Source: Ferruginibacter sp. (GTDB lineage Bacteria; Bacteroidota; Bacteroidia; Chitinophagales; Chitinophagaceae). Taken from it: 33,922 bases of DNA. A program made the translations under genes and the position numbers. The stretch covers positions 1-33,922 of the forward strand of contig NZ_JACMOO010000105.1 of assembly GCF_014377975.1 (NCBI RefSeq), written 5' to 3'. Positions 231-9,718 of this stretch are shown piece after piece. The stretch's first letter is position 1, and every line of letters begins with the position of its first letter. Under the pieces are notes generated by a model. It was not told where the DNA came from, did no database searches, and worked only from the letters and a program-made list of their open reading frames with translations.

Positions 231-494
231 ATGCCCTCTGCAACAGTTTGCAAAAGGCCCCATCCTCTATTTTATTTAGGATTGCCCAATAACCGAATTC
301 GGTTAATATGCATTGATGATGTATTGGCAGGTGAATATTATTTTATAACACCCATATTGATCCGCTCTCACCATCTTGCTGTTTACAATAAACACCGTAG
401 CAAATTTAAAGAGAACCACATAGCTGAAATAGTAAAAGAGGGCGATGCAACGATGCACCACGAAGTTGTTCTAGCCTGGACAAAAAACGTTTAA
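231..494 (+). CDS. Small hypothetical ORF (87 aa), doubtful
   Basis: This ORF opens directly after an in-frame TAA (228-230), has no visible ribosome binding site, and its last four bases overlap the 3' end of aroC on the other strand. The C-terminal half, with HHLAVYNKHRSKF and a stretch rich in Glu, Lys and His, has protein-like composition, but I recognise no family. There is no signal peptide or membrane segment. It may be a real small gene, the decayed 3' part of a larger gene, or chance. Positions 80-230 hold nothing else I can name. Confidence 0.25.
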   Translation: MPSATVCKRPHPLFYLGLPNNRIRLICIDDVLAGEYYFITPILIRSHHLAVYNKHRSKFKENHIAEIVKEGDATMHHEVVLAWTKNV

Positions 495-1480
495 ACTACC
501 CTGCCCATCCTTTGTTCCAGCAGCATCAGATCGGCCAAAACAAAGGCTGTTACGGCTTCCAGCACAACGGGTACCCTTAACGCGATGCAAAGATCGTGTC
601 TTCCTTTTACAGAAAAGTCTTCTGTTTCGCCGGTTTCTACATTGAGTGTGTGCTGAATTTTTGGTGTGGAGGAAGTTGGCTTAATGGCAATGCGAAACAC
701 CAGTTCGTTGCTGTTGGTAATGCCACCAACAATGCCACCTGCGTGATTGGTAACTGTTTTACCCGTGCTGTTTTCTATGGCATCATTGTGTTGGCTGCCA
801 TACATACGGGCCGCTGCAAAACCGGTTCCAAATTCAATACCTCTTACAGCCGGTATGGCAAATACCGCATGGCCAATCATTGATTCAGCAGAATCAAAGA
901 ACGGCTCGCCCAAACCGATGGGCAGGCCATTTACTTTACACTCCACAATGCCGCCGATGGTGTCTTTGGCATCAATGGCTTTTTGCAAACCCACTTCTGT
1001 ATCGGCTTCACCACCTATTTCTAAAATGGTTGCTGCAATACTTATTTCTTTTAATAATTTTTTCGCTACTACTCCTGCTGCAACCAGGCAAACAGTCAGC
1101 CTTCCGCTGAAATGCCCGCCACCCCTGTAATCTTCAAAGCCGCCAAATTTTTTGGTGGCAACAAAATCCGCATGGCCGGGCCTTGGTACGGCTCGTTGCT
1201 TTTCATAATCGCCGCTGCGGGTATTGGTATTATCGAATAAAACAGTGATGGGTGCACCGGTTGTTTTACCATTGTAAACACCATTCATTATTTTGGGAAG
1301 ATCGGCTTCCTTACGGGGCGTTGTACCTTTGGCGCCAGCTTTTCTTCTATCAATATCAGTGGTAAAATCATCTACACCTAATGATAAGCCTGCCGGGCAA
1401 CCATCAATATTTATACCCACACATTCGCCATGCGACTCACCAAAAATTGATACCCGGAAAATACGTCCAATACTATTCAT
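491..1480 (-). CDS. aroC: Chorismate synthase
   Basis: AroC makes chorismate from 5-enolpyruvylshikimate-3-phosphate by anti-1,4-elimination of phosphate, with reduced FMN as cofactor, in the cytoplasm. It is the last step of the shikimate pathway. The family signatures are clear: GESHG at residues 14-18, RPGHAD at 100-105, RGGGHFSGR at 119-127, and a C-terminal RHDLCIALRVP block that matches the third signature. At 329 aa it is slightly shorter than the usual 350-390 aa, but all core blocks are present. It is the last gene of the aromatic operon and starts 15 nt after the stop of the zeta-like kinase gene, so the two are very probably co-transcribed. No strong terminator is visible just downstream. 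Confidence 0.97.
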   Translation of the reverse strand: MNSIGRIFRVSIFGESHGECVGINIDGCPAGLSLGVDDFTTDIDRRKAGAKGTTPRKEADLPKIMNGVYNGKTTGAPITVLFDNTNTRSGDYEKQRAVPRPGHADFVATKKFGGFEDYRGGGHFSGRLTVCLVAAGVVAKKLLKEISIAATILEIGGEADTEVGLQKAIDAKDTIGGIVECKVNGLPIGLGEPFFDSAESMIGHAVFAIPAVRGIEFGTGFAAARMYGSQHNDAIENSTGKTVTNHAGGIVGGITNSNELVFRIAIKPTSSTPKIQHTLNVETGETEDFSVKGRHDLCIALRVPVVLEAVTAFVLADLMLLEQRMGRVV

Positions 1481-2416: not shown

Positions 2417-3706
2417 TTAACCTTTTGCAGTTAAAGTTACCTGTAATTTATTTAAGTGTTTATAAAACTCGGGATAAGATTTATTGATGGCTTCAGCTTC
2501 TTCAATAATGGTTGGCCCACTTGCTTTTAAACCCGCCACCGCACAAGCCATGGCAATGCGATGATCGTGATGTGAATGAACTTGAGCGCCTATTACGCCA
2601 GTACCACCTTCCACCAGCATCAGGTCGTCCTGTAATTTTATTGTGATTCCCATTTTACCAAACTCTTGCTGCAACGTTAAACCTCGGTTGCTCTCTTTAT
2701 GTGCCAAACGATTGACACCTTCAATTACCGTAGTACCATTGCAGTAAGCTGCCAAAGCAACCAGTGGTGGAAAAAGATCAGGGCAATCGGTTGCATCAAA
2801 ATGAAAAGCTCTTAATGCACTGTTGCCAACAGCGGGAGATCCAATTTCAACTTGTTTTTCCTGTATAGAGATGGTGCTGCCACAATCAATCAACGCCTGT
2901 AAAATAGCCTTGTCTGCCTGGGTTGACAATGTGTTCAGACCTGTCACCGTAATCTTTCCTGCTATTGCTGCCGCCACCAATAAAAATGCACCGCCACTCC
3001 AATCTCCTTCCACCGTGTATTCAATGGTATTGTTGACCGTTTTCGCAACAGGATTAATTAAAAAAGATTGGTAGTTATTGTTGGTAACATCGTAGCCAAA
3101 ATGTTTCATCACCTGCAAGGTGAGATCTATGTAAGGTTTACTTTTTAAATTGATAACGGTAATGGTTACAGGCCTGGTAGCTGCCTTACCATAAGCCATT
3201 AATAAACCAGTTAAAAATTGCGAACTCAATGATCCATCGATGGTGATGTCTTTTGGTTGCAAAGGGCCATGTATTTGAATGGGTAATTTGCCGTTGTTGG
3301 ATTGAATACTAATATCCAGTTGCGGAAAAATTTCATCAAAAAAATTCATTGGCCTTGATGACAGGCTACCAGTTCCATTTATAACAATCGGGCTTTTACT
3401 CAAAGCAGCAATGGGTGCAAACATCCTGATACCCAAGCCACTTTCGCCGCAATTCATTTCGGTACCGGCTGGCTGTATGCCTTTACTGGAAATGGTTACA
3501 TAATTATTAGCTGAAGCAACAATGGTGGCGCCCAATATTTTAATTACTTCCAAGGCAGCAAGATCGTCATTACTTTTCCCGGGATTCTCAATAGTAGTTT
3601 GCCCATTATTTAGTAATGCCGCGGCACAAGCCCGTTGCATAGAACTTTTGGAAGTTGGTGCATTTATATTACCCGAAATAGCAGAAGGCTGTATGGTTAC
3701 GATCAT
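2417..3706 (-). CDS. aroA: 3-phosphoshikimate 1-carboxyvinyltransferase (EPSP synthase)
   Basis: AroA transfers the enolpyruvyl group of phosphoenolpyruvate to shikimate-3-phosphate, the step before AroC. Family blocks are visible in order: PTSKSSMQRA near residues 17-26 (the PGSKS-type shikimate-3-phosphate site), GESGLGIRMF at 87-96 (equivalent to the PEP-site loop), LSSQFLTGLL, DATDCPDLFPP with the catalytic-site Asp, NRLAHKESNR and HHDHRIAMA near the C-terminus. The length of 429 aa is normal. The PEP-site loop differs from the NAGTAMRP of the E. coli enzyme at several positions (see findings). The gene lies between aroB, 71 nt upstream, and the small ORF 2 nt downstream. Confidence 0.96.
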   Translation of the reverse strand: MIVTIQPSAISGNINAPTSKSSMQRACAAALLNNGQTTIENPGKSNDDLAALEVIKILGATIVASANNYVTISSKGIQPAGTEMNCGESGLGIRMFAPIAALSKSPIVINGTGSLSSRPMNFFDEIFPQLDISIQSNNGKLPIQIHGPLQPKDITIDGSLSSQFLTGLLMAYGKAATRPVTITVINLKSKPYIDLTLQVMKHFGYDVTNNNYQSFLINPVAKTVNNTIEYTVEGDWSGGAFLLVAAAIAGKITVTGLNTLSTQADKAILQALIDCGSTISIQEKQVEIGSPAVGNSALRAFHFDATDCPDLFPPLVALAAYCNGTTVIEGVNRLAHKESNRGLTLQQEFGKMGITIKLQDDLMLVEGGTGVIGAQVHSHHDHRIAMACAVAGLKASGPTIIEEAEAINKSYPEFYKHLNKLQVTLTAKG

Positions 3707-3777: not shown

Positions 3778-4830
3778 TTAATGGATCAAATTTTCCAGTT
3801 CGTTCATAGCAATTGGCTGAATCATTGCCTGGCCGATTTTATTCAGAAGGATAAAATTCATTGAGTTACCGGCTCGTTTTTTATCCATTTTTAATACGTC
3901 CCAGATTTTTTCTTTATCAAAATCAAATTGCGTAGGCAGGTGATATTTTTCCAATAAGTCTCTTATTTTTTGAGTTTCCCCGGCAGGAAAATCATTGATA
4001 GATTCTGAAATTACAGCCGCTGCTACCATGCCAATACTAACGGCATGGCCGTGTGGAAGAAGATACATATTTTCAATAGCATGACCCAGGGTATGACCAA
4101 AGTTTAACAGCTTTCTGTCGCCCTGTTCAAATTCATCATTTACCACTACTGTTGTTTTTATCTGCACATTTTTTTCAATCAAGGCAGCCAGCTTAATTTT
4201 ATCGGCTTTAAAATTTTCGATAGATTCTTTTTGCAGTAATGCAAACAAATCTGCATCTTTAATGCAGGCATGTTTAACCACTTCAGCAAAACCATTGATC
4301 CATTGATCAGCGGGTAATGTTTGTAACAACGAATAATCAAACAATAAAAATTCCGGTTGTTTGATGAGCCCTGCTAAATTTTTATAGATGCCTACATCCA
4401 CTCCATTTTTGCCGCCGATAGACGCGTCTACCATGGCAAGGATAGTAGTAGGAATAAAACCAAATTTTAAACCCCGCATGTAAATCCCGGCAGCATAACC
4501 ACTGATATCCGTAACTACGCCACCGCCAACTCCAACAATAAAAGTACTCCGGTCGGCACCTTTAGCTATCAGTTCCCCAATAATATAATCCACAGTAGCC
4601 TGCTGCTTATGTTCTTCGCCGGCAGGCAATACGATGGTTTGCCAGCCATCAAACAATTGCGGATGATTTTGAAATATATTGGCATCTGTTATTAAAATGG
4701 TTTTTAACCTGGAAACAATTTGTTCCAGGTAAGAAAATGCTGCATCAAAATAATATACACCGTCAAAATTTCCACCGGCTGGAAGCGCTTCTGCGGAACC
4801 TGATAAAGAAGAAACTTTTATAGTTTTCAT
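3778..4830 (-). CDS. aroB: 3-dehydroquinate synthase
   Basis: AroB converts DAHP to 3-dehydroquinate, using NAD+ and a divalent metal (Zn or Co), in the second step of the shikimate pathway. The protein shows the NAD-binding GGGVVTD at residues 102-108, PTT at 127-129, DASIGGKNGVD at 135-145, the metal-binding region GFAEVVKH at 180-187, NFGHTLGHAIE with two metal-site His residues, and LPHGHAVSIGM. Its length of 350 aa is typical. It is preceded by a 107-nt spacer from the DAHP synthase gene, which has AT-rich inverted repeats but no clear terminator, so read-through within the operon is likely. Confidence 0.96.
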   Translation of the reverse strand: MKTIKVSSLSGSAEALPAGGNFDGVYYFDAAFSYLEQIVSRLKTILITDANIFQNHPQLFDGWQTIVLPAGEEHKQQATVDYIIGELIAKGADRSTFIVGVGGGVVTDISGYAAGIYMRGLKFGFIPTTILAMVDASIGGKNGVDVGIYKNLAGLIKQPEFLLFDYSLLQTLPADQWINGFAEVVKHACIKDADLFALLQKESIENFKADKIKLAALIEKNVQIKTTVVVNDEFEQGDRKLLNFGHTLGHAIENMYLLPHGHAVSIGMVAAAVISESINDFPAGETQKIRDLLEKYHLPTQFDFDKEKIWDVLKMDKKRAGNSMNFILLNKIGQAMIQPIAMNELENLIH

Positions 4831-4937: not shown

Positions 4938-6053
4938 CTAACTATTCATCACCTTGTTTTGATGGTTGATACTTTCCAGATGTACCGCATCAAAATATTT
5001 TGTAATAAAATCCTGGCTCAGGCCAAGCTTATCTCCTTTGTTAATTGCTTTTTGCAAAATATCATTCCAGCGGTTGGTTTGTAAAATGGTAATATTATTT
5101 TCTCTTTTGTACGCTCCTATTTTGTCCGCAATTTTCATACGCTGTGCAATCAACGCAAGCAATTCGTCATCTACATGATTGATCTGTTCTCTTAAAGTAG
5201 CCAGCGCCGTTATAAACTCCTGCTTGTCGGTACCTTCCGAACGCCAGATCAATGCATCCAGCATTTCTGCCAAACGTTCCGGAGTTATTTGTTGTTTGGC
5301 ATCACTCCACGCATTATCCGGATCAATATGGCTTTCAATCATTACGCCGTCAAAATCAAGATCAATACTTTTTTGTGAGATGGATTGCAGATTGGTTCTG
5401 TTACCACAAATATGCGAAGGATCGCAAATTAAAATCATTTCAGGAAAACGACGTTTCATTTCAATGGGCAAATGCCACATTGGAGCATTTCGGTATTCTG
5501 TATTTCCATAATTGGAAAAGCCACGATGTATCATTCCTACCTGTTTAATTCCGGCTTTCTGAATACGTTCAATGGCGCCCGTCCATAATTCAAGGTCAGG
5601 ATTAATTGGATTTTTTATCAGTACAGGAACATCCACACCACGCAATGCATCTGCCACTTCCTGAACACTAAATGGGTTAACAGTCGTTCTGGCACCAATC
5701 CAAAGCATGTCGGTATCAAAATGCAATGCATCTTCTACATGTTTTGCTGTGGCTACTTCTACAGTAGTTGGCAACCCGGTTATTTTTTTTGCCTGGGCCA
5801 ACCATGACAAACCTTTGGCGCCAATCCCTTCAAACAAACCGGGTTTTGTACGGGGCTTCCAGATACCTGCACGCAATACATCTACCTTACCGGTTTTGGC
5901 AAGCCGCGTAGCTGTTTCAATCACCTGCTCTTCTGTCTCGGCACTGCATGGGCCACTGATAATTAATGGACGTTTGTTCCATTTTTCCTGCATTAACTGT
6001 TTCATTGTTTTAATTTCTGTTTGCATTGTAAAATTAGTTTTTGTTACCAACAT
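4938..6053 (-). CDS. aroF: Bifunctional DAHP synthase / chorismate mutase (type II)
   Basis: The N-terminal domain (about residues 25-265) condenses PEP and erythrose-4-phosphate to DAHP, the committed step of aromatic synthesis. It shows GPCSAET at 34-40, KPRTKP at 66-71, IKNP at 146-149, and DPSH at 211-214 with metal and PEP ligands. The C-terminal domain (about 280-365, starting LATLREQINHVDDELLALIA) is an AroQ-type chorismate mutase with Arg288, Arg305 and Lys316-Arg317 in the expected places. This fusion order is common in Bacteroidota; the fused mutase may give feedback control by prephenate. Three in-frame ATGs exist (6053, 6026, 6005). Homology starts only near residue 25, so the true start is uncertain. 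The gene symbol is by function only. A 265-nt spacer separates it from tyrA. Confidence 0.93.
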   Translation of the reverse strand: MLVTKTNFTMQTEIKTMKQLMQEKWNKRPLIISGPCSAETEEQVIETATRLAKTGKVDVLRAGIWKPRTKPGLFEGIGAKGLSWLAQAKKITGLPTTVEVATAKHVEDALHFDTDMLWIGARTTVNPFSVQEVADALRGVDVPVLIKNPINPDLELWTGAIERIQKAGIKQVGMIHRGFSNYGNTEYRNAPMWHLPIEMKRRFPEMILICDPSHICGNRTNLQSISQKSIDLDFDGVMIESHIDPDNAWSDAKQQITPERLAEMLDALIWRSEGTDKQEFITALATLREQINHVDDELLALIAQRMKIADKIGAYKRENNITILQTNRWNDILQKAINKGDKLGLSQDFITKYFDAVHLESINHQNKVMNS

Positions 6054-6318: not shown

Positions 6319-7248
6319 TTACTGAAAAATCCTTTTTATCTTATTCGCATTTTCCATCAGCTCTGTTAAATATTCCAGGTTTTCCTTTTCAAGACTTGCC
6401 TTAAATTTTCTTAACTGGGTAATGTGTTCATTTAATACATCCAGCACATTTTCCCTGTTCTGCATAAAAATGGGCGCCCACATGGCAGAGTTACTTTTTG
6501 CCAACCGCACCGTACTTTCAAAACCACCACCTGCCAAAGCAAAAATAGCTTCATCTTCTTTTTCCTTTTCCAGCACTGTATTGGCAAGCGCAAACGAAGT
6601 GATATGCGATATATGACTGATATAGGCGGCATGAATATCATGACTATGGGCATCCATATAAACGATGTTCATACCAAATGATCTGTAAATATTTTCAACA
6701 GAAATTACTACATCAGCATCCGTTTTTTCTTTTTCGCATATTACACATACCCGTCCTTCAAAAGCCCCTCTCACAGCGGCTTCGGGGCCACTGTATTCTG
6801 TTCCCCACATAGGATGGGTAGCAATAAACCGGTTCCGCATCGGATGGTCTTTCAGTGCATCGCACAAAACAAATTTGGTGGAACCTGCATCTGCCACCAT
6901 TTGTTGATCGGTTATCAAATCCATTATTTGTTGCATCACCACTACGGTTGCATCTACTGGTATGGCAACATAAATAAAATCACTTTGCTTTACCGCTTCT
7001 TCCAGTGGCAGGGCTTCATCTATAATTCCAAGCGCCTTTGCCTTTTGCAGACTTGCTTCGGTTCTGCTTACGCCAATTATTTTTTTTGCAAAGCCTTTAT
7101 CCTTCAGAGCCAATGCAAATGAACCGCTTATTAAACCTACGCCCACAATGGTAACAACCATTCCTTTTTTATTCAGATCCGCCAGCGGCGAAGCTTGCAT
7201 GAATGCTGATGAAATATTTGTTTTGCTGATCTGTTCCTTATCTTCCAT
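6319..7248 (-). CDS. tyrA: Prephenate dehydrogenase
   Basis: TyrA oxidatively decarboxylates prephenate to 4-hydroxyphenylpyruvate, the precursor of tyrosine, with NAD(P)+. The Rossmann signature GVGLISGS is at residues 36-43. ATHPMWGTEYSGPEAA follows with the catalytic His at about 145, and SHISHITSFALANTV is the conserved helical block of the dimerisation domain. The protein has a 28-residue N-terminal extension before the Rossmann fold, so an internal start at Met30 is possible. There is no ACT domain, so direct allosteric control by tyrosine is not evident. It lies 52 nt after the aminotransferase gene in the aromatic operon. Confidence 0.95.
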   Translation of the reverse strand: MEDKEQISKTNISSAFMQASPLADLNKKGMVVTIVGVGLISGSFALALKDKGFAKKIIGVSRTEASLQKAKALGIIDEALPLEEAVKQSDFIYVAIPVDATVVVMQQIMDLITDQQMVADAGSTKFVLCDALKDHPMRNRFIATHPMWGTEYSGPEAAVRGAFEGRVCVICEKEKTDADVVISVENIYRSFGMNIVYMDAHSHDIHAAYISHISHITSFALANTVLEKEKEDEAIFALAGGGFESTVRLAKSNSAMWAPIFMQNRENVLDVLNEHITQLRKFKASLEKENLEYLTELMENANKIKRIFQ

Positions 7249-7300: not shown

Positions 7301-8530
7301 TTAAAGTGTTTTTTTAATCCGCTCAATTGCTTCAGCTATTTTTTCTTCGTTGCTGCATAAACTTACTCTTACATACGCATCACCTGCGCTGCCAAAAATA
7401 CCACCGGGTGTAATAAACACACCTGATTCATACAATACTTTATCACTGAGTGCATAGCCATCTTTATACCCTTGCGGAATGGCAGCCCACATAAATAAAC
7501 CTGCCTGGTTTTCATCAAAATTACAGTGCAATAATTGCAGCAATTCAACTACTTTTTTTCTTCTTGTACGGTATAAATTATTTACTTCATCATGAAAGCT
7601 TACCGGCAATTGCAAGGCCTTTGCTGCTGCCAATTGCAATGGTAAAAACATTCCACTATCCATGTTGCTTTTAAAACGCAGCACTTCATCAATTCTTTGT
7701 TTGGCACCTGCCAGTACACCAATTCTCCATCCAGCCATATTGTGGCTCTTGCTCAAACTATTTAATTCAATTGCTACGTCCATTGCACCATCCGTGCTCA
7801 GTAAACTCATTGGCGCATCGTTTAAAATAAAGCTGTATGGATTATCATGTACCAATAAAATATGATGCTTTTTTGCAAAGGCAACCAATTGAATAAACAG
7901 CTCTTTCGTTGGCAGTTGCCCTGTTGGCATTTGAGGATAATTTACAAACATCAGCTTTACATTTTGCAGGTCTGTCGTTTCCAATGTTGCAAAATCGGGA
8001 TACCAGTTATTTTCCTTTGTCAATGTATATTCTACTGCGGTAGCACCTGCAATTTTTAATGCACTTTTATAAGTTGGATAACCGGGGTTTGGAATTAATA
8101 CAAGATCGCCAGGGTTTAAATAAGTCATGCAAATATGCATGATGCCTTCTTTGCTGCCGATTAACGGCAATATTTCAGTTTCAGCATTTAAGGTTACATT
8201 ATACCAATTTTTATACCACACGGCTACTGCATTACGTAAAACGGGGCTGCCTTTATAATTCTGATATCCATGCTGATTGGGCTTCATGGCTTCTTCATGT
8301 AATGTTTGTATCACGTCTGGATGAGGGGGTAAATCAGGACTTCCTATTCCCAAATTAATTATCTGCTTACCTGCCCTGTTCAATTCATCTATTTCTCTTA
8401 ATTTTTGAGAAAAATAGTATTCGCCAATTCCTTCCAGCCGGTTGGCAACAGGCATGTCAATCACTTCACTGGTAAAAGATGCAGTAGTTTTTAATATTGC
8501 TGTTTGGTTTAAAATCGTTTCGTTATTCAT
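7301..8530 (-). CDS. PLP-dependent class I/II aminotransferase, likely aromatic or aspartate type
   Basis: This is a fold-type I aminotransferase. It has NLGIGSPDLPP near residue 59, a GSKEGI cofactor-phosphate region at 125-130, NPGYPTY at 148-154, HDNPYSF with the PLP-ring Asp, and the Schiff-base lysine in SLSKSHNMAGWR at Lys261. The family includes aspartate, aromatic and LL-diaminopimelate aminotransferases, and sequence alone does not fix the substrate. Its place between pheA and tyrA suggests it transaminates phenylpyruvate and 4-hydroxyphenylpyruvate to Phe and Tyr. Homology starts near MPVANRLEGIG, so Met26 (8455) is a possible alternative start. Confidence 0.92.
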   Translation of the reverse strand: MNNETILNQTAILKTTASFTSEVIDMPVANRLEGIGEYYFSQKLREIDELNRAGKQIINLGIGSPDLPPHPDVIQTLHEEAMKPNQHGYQNYKGSPVLRNAVAVWYKNWYNVTLNAETEILPLIGSKEGIMHICMTYLNPGDLVLIPNPGYPTYKSALKIAGATAVEYTLTKENNWYPDFATLETTDLQNVKLMFVNYPQMPTGQLPTKELFIQLVAFAKKHHILLVHDNPYSFILNDAPMSLLSTDGAMDVAIELNSLSKSHNMAGWRIGVLAGAKQRIDEVLRFKSNMDSGMFLPLQLAAAKALQLPVSFHDEVNNLYRTRRKKVVELLQLLHCNFDENQAGLFMWAAIPQGYKDGYALSDKVLYESGVFITPGGIFGSAGDAYVRVSLCSNEEKIAEAIERIKKTL

Positions 8531-8568: not shown

Positions 8569-9495
8569 TTATTTCTTTGCTTTTATCATTTGTTGAACTT
8601 TTGCAACAGGCGACGGTAAAACTTTACCATTTTTATAGATGCCATATATTTTTATTTCTTCTGTTATGGATTCTACTTTTTTTATCACACTATAAAATTG
8701 TTCAACAGCGTCAAATTCAACATCTGCATGAAAAGAATATTTAAAATCGCTGCCTGGAATAGGAAAAGATTGAAGCTTGCTCAAATTAATACCGGCATCA
8801 GCAATTTTTGCCAATACCTTTACCAAACTTCCTTTTGAATGGTCTGTATGAAAATTAATGGAAGCCTTATTTGCATTCATTATTTCCTTTGTATTCCCAG
8901 ATTTTTGCAATACTAAAAACCGGGTGTAGTTATTCTTTAGCGTATGGATATTAGGAGCAATTATATGTAGATCATAAATTTCTGCCGCCAGTTTGCTTGC
9001 TATGGCTGCCACATGTTTGCTTCTATGTTGATGCACCTGTTTGGCACTTAATGCAGTGTCTTCTTTTTCTACCAACTTCCAGTTGTATTTATCTAAAAAG
9101 CCAAAACATTGCTGAATAGCCATAGGATGAGAATGCACTTCCTTTATATCTGCCAGTTCAACACCTGGGCTTACCATCAGGTGCTGGTTGATCTGTAAAT
9201 AAACTTCTCCAACAATAGTAAGGTTACTTTTTTGCAATAAATTATAATTGGGCAAAATACTGCCGGCAATAGAATTTTCAATAGCCATTACCCCGCCATT
9301 ACTTTTCTTATCATCTCCTGCAATATCTACTACTTCTTTAAAAGTTGAACAACAAATTACTTCAACTGATTTACCATAAAAGTTCCTCGCAGCCTCCTGA
9401 TGAAAACATCCCTCAAACCCTTGTATGGACACTTTATGGTTGATTCCATTTTTAGCATTTTCTTTTACATTCACAGAATTGTACTGATAACTCAT
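8569..9495 (-). CDS. pheA: Prephenate dehydratase with C-terminal ACT domain
   Basis: PheA dehydrates and decarboxylates prephenate to phenylpyruvate, the committed step to phenylalanine. The catalytic domain (about residues 21-197) shows AIENSIAGSI at 71-80 and NNYTRFLVL with the catalytic TRF at 191-193. An ACT domain follows at about 211-288. Its first ligand motif is close to the canonical GALV (GSLV at 222-225), but the second, normally ESRP, reads QSFP at 242-245, so phenylalanine feedback may be altered. It is the first structural gene of the operon, starting about 50 nt after the attenuator terminator. Confidence 0.95.
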   Translation of the reverse strand: MSYQYNSVNVKENAKNGINHKVSIQGFEGCFHQEAARNFYGKSVEVICCSTFKEVVDIAGDDKKSNGGVMAIENSIAGSILPNYNLLQKSNLTIVGEVYLQINQHLMVSPGVELADIKEVHSHPMAIQQCFGFLDKYNWKLVEKEDTALSAKQVHQHRSKHVAAIASKLAAEIYDLHIIAPNIHTLKNNYTRFLVLQKSGNTKEIMNANKASINFHTDHSKGSLVKVLAKIADAGINLSKLQSFPIPGSDFKYSFHADVEFDAVEQFYSVIKKVESITEEIKIYGIYKNGKVLPSPVAKVQQMIKAKK

Positions 9496-9540
9496 TTCAA
9501 ACTTATTTTTTTAATTGCTCTTATTTAGAAAGGTTTATAA

Positions 9541-9570
9541 ACAAAAATCCCGACCTATTTAGCCGGGATT
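9541..9570 (-). terminator. Attenuator terminator of the aromatic operon
   Basis: Read on the minus strand, 9570-9546 forms a 9-bp stem (arms AATCCCGGC and GTCGGGATT, one G-U pair) with a seven-base loop. It is followed at once by a TTTGT run that makes GGGATTTTTG. It lies between the leader peptide and pheA, so it can only act on transcripts that have passed the leader. Its upstream arm (9564-9570) is also the right arm of the antiterminator, so the two structures exclude each other. The plus strand also carries a T-run after the hairpin, but no plus-strand gene enters it. Confidence 0.88.
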
Positions 9571-9658
9571 CTTTTTATGTTAATCTGTTTTTATTTTTTC
9601 AGTACTTAACAAAAGACTCCCGTTCTATTTTTAAAATAGAAACTAAAATAAAATCGGG
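9564..9658 (-). promoter_or_regulatory. Antiterminator and pause hairpin of a Phe/Tyr attenuator
   Basis: In RNA sense (minus strand), CGGGAGTCTTTT (9622-9611) pairs with AAAAGAATCCCG (9575-9564) at 11 of 12 positions. This antiterminator would destroy the terminator at 9546-9570. The competing upstream structure pairs TTCTATTTT (9641-9633) with AAAATAGAA (9631-9623), and CCCG near 9658 with CGGG, which hides the antiterminator arm. The Phe/Tyr codon run of the leader lies over the upstream arm of this pause hairpin. A ribosome stalled there would free the antiterminator arm, so read-through is expected when charged Phe- or Tyr-tRNA is scarce. The pairing is seen; the regulation is inferred from classical attenuators. 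Confidence 0.85.
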
Positions 9659-9680
9659 CGTTAATTGTTGCTGTTATCAT
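9606..9680 (-). CDS. Phe/Tyr-rich leader peptide of the aromatic operon (24 aa)
   Basis: This is a short ORF with an ATG at 9680 and a TAA at 9608-9606. It encodes 24 residues starting MITATINAR, followed by the run FYFSFYF and ending TGVFC. Seven of 24 residues are Phe or Tyr (five Phe, two Tyr), and six of them fall within seven consecutive codons; there is no Trp. It sits exactly where a leader peptide is needed, over the upstream arm of the pause hairpin and ahead of the antiterminator and terminator. The closest functional analogue is the pheL leader of enterobacteria, with no sequence similarity implied. It senses charging of tRNA-Phe and tRNA-Tyr rather than having a function as a peptide. 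Confidence 0.85.
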   Translation of the reverse strand: MITATINARFYFSFYFKNRTGVFC

Positions 9681-9688
9681 TTGAAAGT

Positions 9689-9718
9689 CGAAAATAGGCC
9701 AATAATTTGAATAACCAA
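9689..9718 (-). promoter_or_regulatory. Probable promoter of the aromatic operon
   Basis: On the minus strand TTG (9718-9716) is followed after 19 nt by TATTTTCG (9696-9689), which matches the Bacteroidota -7 element TAnnTTTG at five of its six fixed bases. Spacing agrees with the clearer promoter in front of mutS in this window (20 nt). The leader ATG is only 8 nt downstream, so the leader mRNA would be almost leaderless. Confidence 0.45.

Follow-up and report, generated by a model that had tools for sequence, protein, structure and literature searches.

A ribosome-mediated transcription attenuator that senses Phe/Tyr charging very probably gates a cluster of aromatic amino acid genes in Ferruginibacter sp., i.e., pheA, an aminotransferase gene, tyrA, a DAHP synthase/chorismate mutase gene, aroB, aroA and aroC. 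Judged from its sequence, the switch probably raises these enzymes when phenylalanine or tyrosine is short. We studied a stretch of 33,922 nt (in the following, the window) from an assembly of 437 contigs that is 94% complete and 7% contaminated. The closest named pheA relatives are from Ferruginibacter sp. and F. paludis, with 79-87% identity for the best eight. All features discussed here are located on the minus strand. The cluster starts with pheA (prephenate dehydratase, 8569..9495), which is followed by a class I/II aminotransferase gene (7301..8530), tyrA (prephenate dehydrogenase, 6319..7248), a gene for DAHP synthase fused to chorismate mutase (4938..6053), aroB (3778..4830), aroA (2417..3706) and aroC (491..1480).

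The region in front of pheA was taken apart into its elements. A preliminary description of this DNA had reported a short ORF with the motif FYFSFYF, and this ORF is indeed found at 9606..9680; it encodes the 24-aa leader peptide MITATINARFYFSFYFKNRTGVFC, which was read from the sequence and is conserved in relatives. Its Phe/Tyr sensor codons span 9633..9653, as given by sequence and family conservation. They are covered by a local pause hairpin (9623..9641, UUCUAUUU...AAAUAGAA), also present where it had been described, and similar sequence occurs in several Ferruginibacter relatives. Strand 2 (CGGGAGUCUUUUGUUAA, 9606..9622) carries the stop codon at its end, and strand 3 (UUAACAUAAAAAGAAUCCCG) covers 9564..9583. 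For the antiterminator of 9611-9622 (CGGGAGUCUUUU) with 9564-9575, we confirm the 11 of 12 pairs described earlier. The actual pairing is longer, i.e., GUUAA (9606-9610, including the stop codon) pairs with UUAAC (9579-9583), which results in 16 pairs in total. The intrinsic terminator (strands 3:4) was likewise correctly located by its core 9546-9570; based on sequence and folding, the full stem spans 9543..9573 and shows 13 bp, a loop of 5, an energy of −16.6 kcal/mol and a U-rich end. A simple terminator scan missed it, probably since the U-run is taken up into the stem, and it was found by folding. Immediately ahead of the Phe/Tyr run, the strand 1 core CCCG (9655..9658) is able to pair with CGGG in strand 2, so that all four strands (1-2-3-4) of a classical attenuator are found here. 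Folding of the 156-nt leader, an analysis already proposed in the preliminary description, yields −34.8 kcal/mol (z −3.9, 0/200 shuffles as good), and the minimum-energy fold is the antiterminator form.

From this arrangement we infer how stalling, termination and the direction of the response would be connected. RNA polymerase would transcribe the leader, and a ribosome would initiate on the mini-ORF near the 5' end. Given plentiful charged Phe-tRNA and Tyr-tRNA, the ribosome would arrive at the stop codon, i.e., in or near strand 2, and would block the pairing of this strand, such that 3:4 pairing could form and transcription would terminate ahead of pheA. A shortage of either charged tRNA would instead stall the ribosome within FYFSFYF; the 1:2 pairing would be disrupted and strand 2 would be left free downstream. 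The free strand 2 would then form 2:3 before strand 4 is synthesized, and transcription would continue into the cluster.

Conservation of the mini-ORF and its pairings in relatives had been set beforehand as a condition for this reading, and both are conserved within the Chitinophagaceae. Here, we used a sample of 195 genomes of the family, among which 133 provided a pheA match and 62 did not. One partial match (G151) was dropped and one genome holds two copies, so that 133 loci including the window were analysed. At least six Phe/Tyr codons within an 8-codon stop-free window upstream of pheA are found in 126/133 family loci, and at least five in 129/133. The mini-ORF score averages 7.23 in the family compared to 3.18 in dinucleotide shuffles. 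Phe codons (751 in total) and Tyr codons (446) occur together in each of the 127 ATG-started family leaders, as would suit a joint sensor placed before a cluster with both branches. F and Y swap freely among these leaders, and beyond the F/Y runs no fixed peptide sequence is observed. The leader had also been described as free of Trp codons. This is true for the window, while 20/127 family leaders do contain a Trp codon, often immediately 5' of the Phe/Tyr run (L057, L084, L095, L102, L110, L144, L151 and others); judged by their codons, these leaders are perhaps three-way aromatic sensors.

Only four of the 133 loci (L137, L138, L143 and L159) fall below five Phe/Tyr codons. The leader is absent from L137, L138 and L143, which are pheA copies that show no aminotransferase gene in the fetched stretch. 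Loci L159 and L160 have both the aminotransferase gene and tyrA downstream and yet show no clear leader or terminator. Beyond the family, 37 of 149 genomes of the class matched pheA, and the 27 of these that had loci were examined. A leader is present in 17/27 loci, with a terminator in 14 of the 17, and 10/27 loci show no leader by the same criteria.

We assessed terminator and competing pairings for the 129 family leaders with at least five Phe/Tyr codons. A terminator is detectable by sequence and folding in 124/129, the window included. Four loci (L073, L076, L078, L126) score as terminator-free because the automatically annotated pheA start was placed before or at the terminator end, and L160 is the locus among the 129 where no terminator was found. 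The 2:3 duplex shows a mean energy of −20.5 kcal/mol compared to −9.0 kcal/mol when shuffled and beats all 20 shuffles in 117/124 leaders; for the 1:2 duplex the mean is −14.7 kcal/mol (shuffled −9.0 kcal/mol). Strand 3 and the terminator arm overlap by at least 6 nt in 124/124 leaders, which is partly by design, i.e., the search for strand 3 was restricted to the terminator arm and 14 nt upstream of it. In 113/124, the 1:2 duplex reaches −8 kcal/mol or lower and the end of its strand 1 is placed between −12 and +14 nt relative to the point where the best F/Y window begins. We also replaced the pairing partners of each leader by those of other leaders, using the 80 of 124 leaders that are left after an 85% redundancy filter. 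The own partner beats the mean of the swapped partners in 74/80 leaders for 2:3, in 80/80 for 3:4 and in 70/80 for 1:2. That is, the pairings are matched within the leaders.

Covariation was evaluated on an alignment of 41 sequences, i.e., the window and 40 named loci that were chosen by eye. It omits the most divergent loci (e.g., L178, L205, L209, L222, L227, L230, L232, L233 and L237), such that the resulting counts lean to closer relatives. Two-sided changes are observed in 22 cells for the antiterminator and in 16 for the terminator. For both helices, the cell counts, the percentage paired and the covariation score are above all 500 shuffles and above every slid version. Of the 22 antiterminator cells, 17 belong to one column pair (A-U vs G-C) and perhaps go back to one ancient event. 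The shuffles are not exceeded by the count of antiterminator pairs that show a two-sided change (4, reached by 135/500 shuffles) or by the count of antiterminator pair types (14, reached by 225/500). For the terminator, 6 pairs show a two-sided change, which is reached by 8/500 shuffles. With regard to the number of such pairs, one slid version exceeds the antiterminator and one the terminator.

The relation of strand 2 to the reading frame provides a further view on what is conserved. The GGG core of strand 2 is located in leader frame 1, 0 and 2 for 64, 25 and 17 loci, respectively; it is past the stop in 5 loci and the motif is absent in 12. In 104/106 loci, this core follows the last Phe/Tyr codon at a distance of 9-13 nt. 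Since the core occurs in all three frames, the peptide's 3' half (PGMLLL, RVVFAKA, RECFC) seems to be a by-product of the RNA sequence. Judged from these sequences, it is the RNA rather than the peptide that is kept in the strand 2 region.

The proposed course of events was then followed by folding snapshots, for which we assumed a ribosome footprint of 12 nt downstream of the A site and a strand 4 that is not yet made. A provision to keep strand 2 free was never needed (0/124). For a ribosome stalled in the Phe/Tyr run, 2:3 forms in 124/124 leaders as long as strand 4 is unmade. For a ribosome at the stop codon, 2:3 is absent in 123/124, and the terminator then forms in 124/124. When strand 4 is included in the stalled state, the equilibrium prefers the terminator in 102/124 leaders, among them the window, and 2:3 is retained in 22/124. 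The model thus needs kinetic trapping. Timing is thought to matter in other attenuators too. If no ribosome is present, 1:2 is the first pairing in 124/124, and 2:3 wins over 1:2 in 108/124 once the leader is folded up to strand 3. The complete ribosome-free leader prefers the terminator in 117/124 cases; in the other 7, which include the window, the antiterminator is favoured.

For the start of the leader RNA, the preliminary description had named a likely promoter just upstream. A sigma-70 promoter scan of this region is no better than shuffles, sigma-70 being the wrong model for this phylum. What can be kept is a reading as a Bacteroidota promoter, i.e., TTG-N19-TATTTTCG, which is weak by itself. 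Here, a possible −33 TTG (9716..9718) is separated by an N19 spacer from a possible −7 box TATTTTCG (9689..9696), which agrees with TAnnTTTG in 5 of 6 fixed positions and lies 8 nt before the leader ATG. Calibrated on the box position in Flavobacterium psychrophilum, the predicted start of transcription in the window is near 9684, which leaves about 4 nt ahead of the leader ATG. A 5-of-6 box is found anywhere in 70% of shuffled upstream regions and at 4-10 nt before the ATG in 15%. Given this imperfect box and a chance of 15%, the promoter case of the window rests on its relatives.

Among these relatives, 106/127 family leaders have a perfect TAnnTTTG no more than 60 nt away from their ATG, compared to 5.9% of shuffles, and in 90/127 its last G is found 4-10 nt before the ATG (0.9% of shuffles). 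The named loci, which partly come from the same genomes as the family set, show the box at 4-10 nt in 51/74 cases. As a control, we took ORFs from the same stretches that are 150 aa or longer and have 100 nt of free upstream sequence (n = 423), with the first ATG as start. The box is present for 48/423 of these ORFs with a peak at 17-20 nt, and only 4/423 have it at 4-10 nt. In F. psychrophilum, the −7 box spans positions −12 to −5 relative to the start site (PMC9723704), such that a box at 4-10 nt before the ATG translates to a predicted 5' UTR of 0-6 nt. Leaders from outside the family show a perfect box in 8/17 cases, at 15-35 nt, and none of the 17 has such a box at 3-10 nt. In this small sample, the nearly leaderless form thus appears particular to the family. 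Leaderless mRNAs make up 5.5% in F. psychrophilum (PMC9723704), and about 3.7% of the 5' UTRs in B. thetaiotaomicron are shorter than 10 nt (PMC7366714). A perfect TAAGTTTG box is also found at 9498-9505 of the window, 2 nt before the pheA ATG. As a by-pass promoter it was set aside, since such a box occurs in 1/124 post-terminator segments and is probably due to chance.

Leaders of the same kind precede further amino acid genes of the same genome. Here, trpE is preceded by MKIKNLYSKIWWWQSLI with a terminator (L270), and hisG by MKKTSHIHDHHSLPLGKLC, also with a terminator (L271). The presence of an own WWW leader at trpE supports the earlier view that Trp is sensed elsewhere. We scanned 30 loci for each of the two genes (of 45 and 46 matching genomes, respectively, out of 60) in addition to the own genome. 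At least three Trp in 8 codons (WWW-rich, often WWWH) are found for 28/31 trpE loci, 27 of them with a terminator (no shuffle control; L278 is doubtful), and a leader with at least three His (often HIHHHH) for 30/31 hisG loci, 30 with a terminator (no shuffle control). Again without shuffle control, a box with at least 5 of 6 positions lies at 3-10 nt in 18/28 trpE and 24/30 hisG leaders, and a perfect one in 6/28 and 20/30, respectively. By their box positions, a short 5' UTR is likely for hisG leaders and uncertain for trpE leaders. In the mini-ORFs upstream of one homoserine dehydrogenase gene (L272), no Thr leader was seen by eye.

We lean towards the view that classical attenuation in Chitinophagaceae is (nearly) leaderless, i.e., that the −7 box abuts the leader ATG and leaves a predicted 5' UTR of 0-6 nt, compared to mostly about 13-16 nt for ordinary box-bearing genes of the same stretches. 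The form is seemingly common to Phe/Tyr and His attenuators, less clearly to those for Trp, in a phylum where Shine-Dalgarno sequences are little used. It may serve to bring the first ribosome onto the RNA directly behind RNA polymerase.

Other explanations of the conserved mini-ORF have to be weighed against tRNA-charging attenuation. The ORF is kept in nearly all loci, as would be expected if it encoded a small functional hydrophobic peptide with the hairpins being an ordinary terminator. We consider this highly improbable given the free F/Y interchange, a 3' half that is read in three frames while the RNA motif persists, strands 2 and 3 that are matched within each leader, and the missing ORF at the three pheA copies that show no aminotransferase gene in the fetched stretch. 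Stalling in the leader ORF is equally part of the idea that a TnaC-like arrest peptide responds, from within the ribosome tunnel, to free Phe or Tyr instead of tRNA charging. Such a peptide would have to act without a fixed sequence, since only the F/Y codon runs are constant, and the trpE and hisG leaders of the same family, with WWW(H) and HIHHHH, point by analogy to codon sensing, which leaves this idea just as small a chance.

Terminator and antiterminator as such would look the same in an RNA switch bound by a protein or ligand (riboswitch, T-box or TRAP-like) with an incidental ORF. Against it stand the strong codon constraint, the fixed spacing from codons to strand 2 and a window without any Rfam match at gathering threshold, so that we regard such a switch as extremely improbable. 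The best Rfam match of the leader is RF01859 (Phe_leader) with 25.2 bits compared to the 55-bit gathering cut-off, i.e., it is not a member of this family.

The attenuator favoured here is of a known mechanistic kind. Apparently new are the joint Phe/Tyr sensor, the cluster for the whole pathway and the nearly leaderless leader mRNA that is predicted for the family. With regard to pheL-pheA of E. coli and other gammaproteobacteria, as generally known, it shares the Phe-rich leader peptide, the 1:2/2:3/3:4 stems and the terminator before pheA. PheL, in turn, is a Phe-only leader with a longer 5' UTR. The leader described here differs from it by mixed Phe and Tyr codons, by its phylum and by a short predicted 5' UTR, and it precedes seven genes that include the shared shikimate steps and tyrA. 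The ilvBNC attenuator of Corynebacterium glutamicum reportedly has a leader peptide that is formed without a ribosome binding site; it is similar in this respect, although it concerns branched-chain amino acids and another phylum.

Within the same phylum, strong clues for leader-peptide attenuation ahead of amino acid biosynthesis operons have been given for F. psychrophilum, where the conserved structured 5' elements that lack an Rfam match include those of pheA and hisG (PMC9723704). The pheA element concerns the same gene as studied here; the passages on it that we consulted give no peptide, strands or family-wide analysis (PMC9723704). To this precedent we add the Trp and His leaders at trpE and hisG and the −7 box adjoining the leader ATG. 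The uORFC-13-1 upstream of aroF in Acholeplasma is similar in that a Phe-coding uORF lies beside a terminator at a shikimate gene, while it belongs to another phylum and is described with at least one phenylalanine residue (PMC8632094). In the accessible parts of the literature, we found neither a joint Phe/Tyr attenuator over a shikimate cluster nor leaderless attenuators in Bacteroidota described; the attenuator surveys Vitreschak 2004 and Lopatovskaya 2010 may hold predictions for the phylum, which would lower the novelty. If the model is true, the common aromatic pathway and its Phe and Tyr branches would be controlled as one unit by ribosome stalling, with Trp and His leaders in parallel. 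It would also provide a system for transcription-translation coupling in a phylum with little Shine-Dalgarno use, in which one can ask whether leaderless initiation permits coupling at these leaders.

Finally, we considered how far the gated cluster extends. What had been called a nine-gene aromatic operon is an aromatic cluster with seven aromatic genes, the other two being a 66-aa ORF and a zeta-toxin-like gene. The idea that the shared shikimate steps and both the Phe and Tyr branches are placed behind one leader fits this gene content, and beyond tyrA, we infer a single transcription unit down to aroC from the sequence. That is, the gap between tyrA and the DAHP synthase gene is 265 nt long in the window and holds no TAnnTTTG box, which makes read-through from the attenuated promoter likely. 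The order of the seven aromatic genes is the same in 95 of the 112 family loci with at least 9 kb downstream. In many relatives (L031-L160), about 1.5-2.5 kb of additional sequence separates tyrA from the DAHP synthase gene. Between aroA and aroC of the window, the 66-aa ORF overlaps the zeta-toxin/AAA-like gene (1496-2414). Neither has a match in the fetched stretches of 132 relatives (tblastn, E 1e-5), some of which end earlier at a contig edge. The two inserted genes may represent a toxin-antitoxin-like pair that rides in the aromatic cluster.
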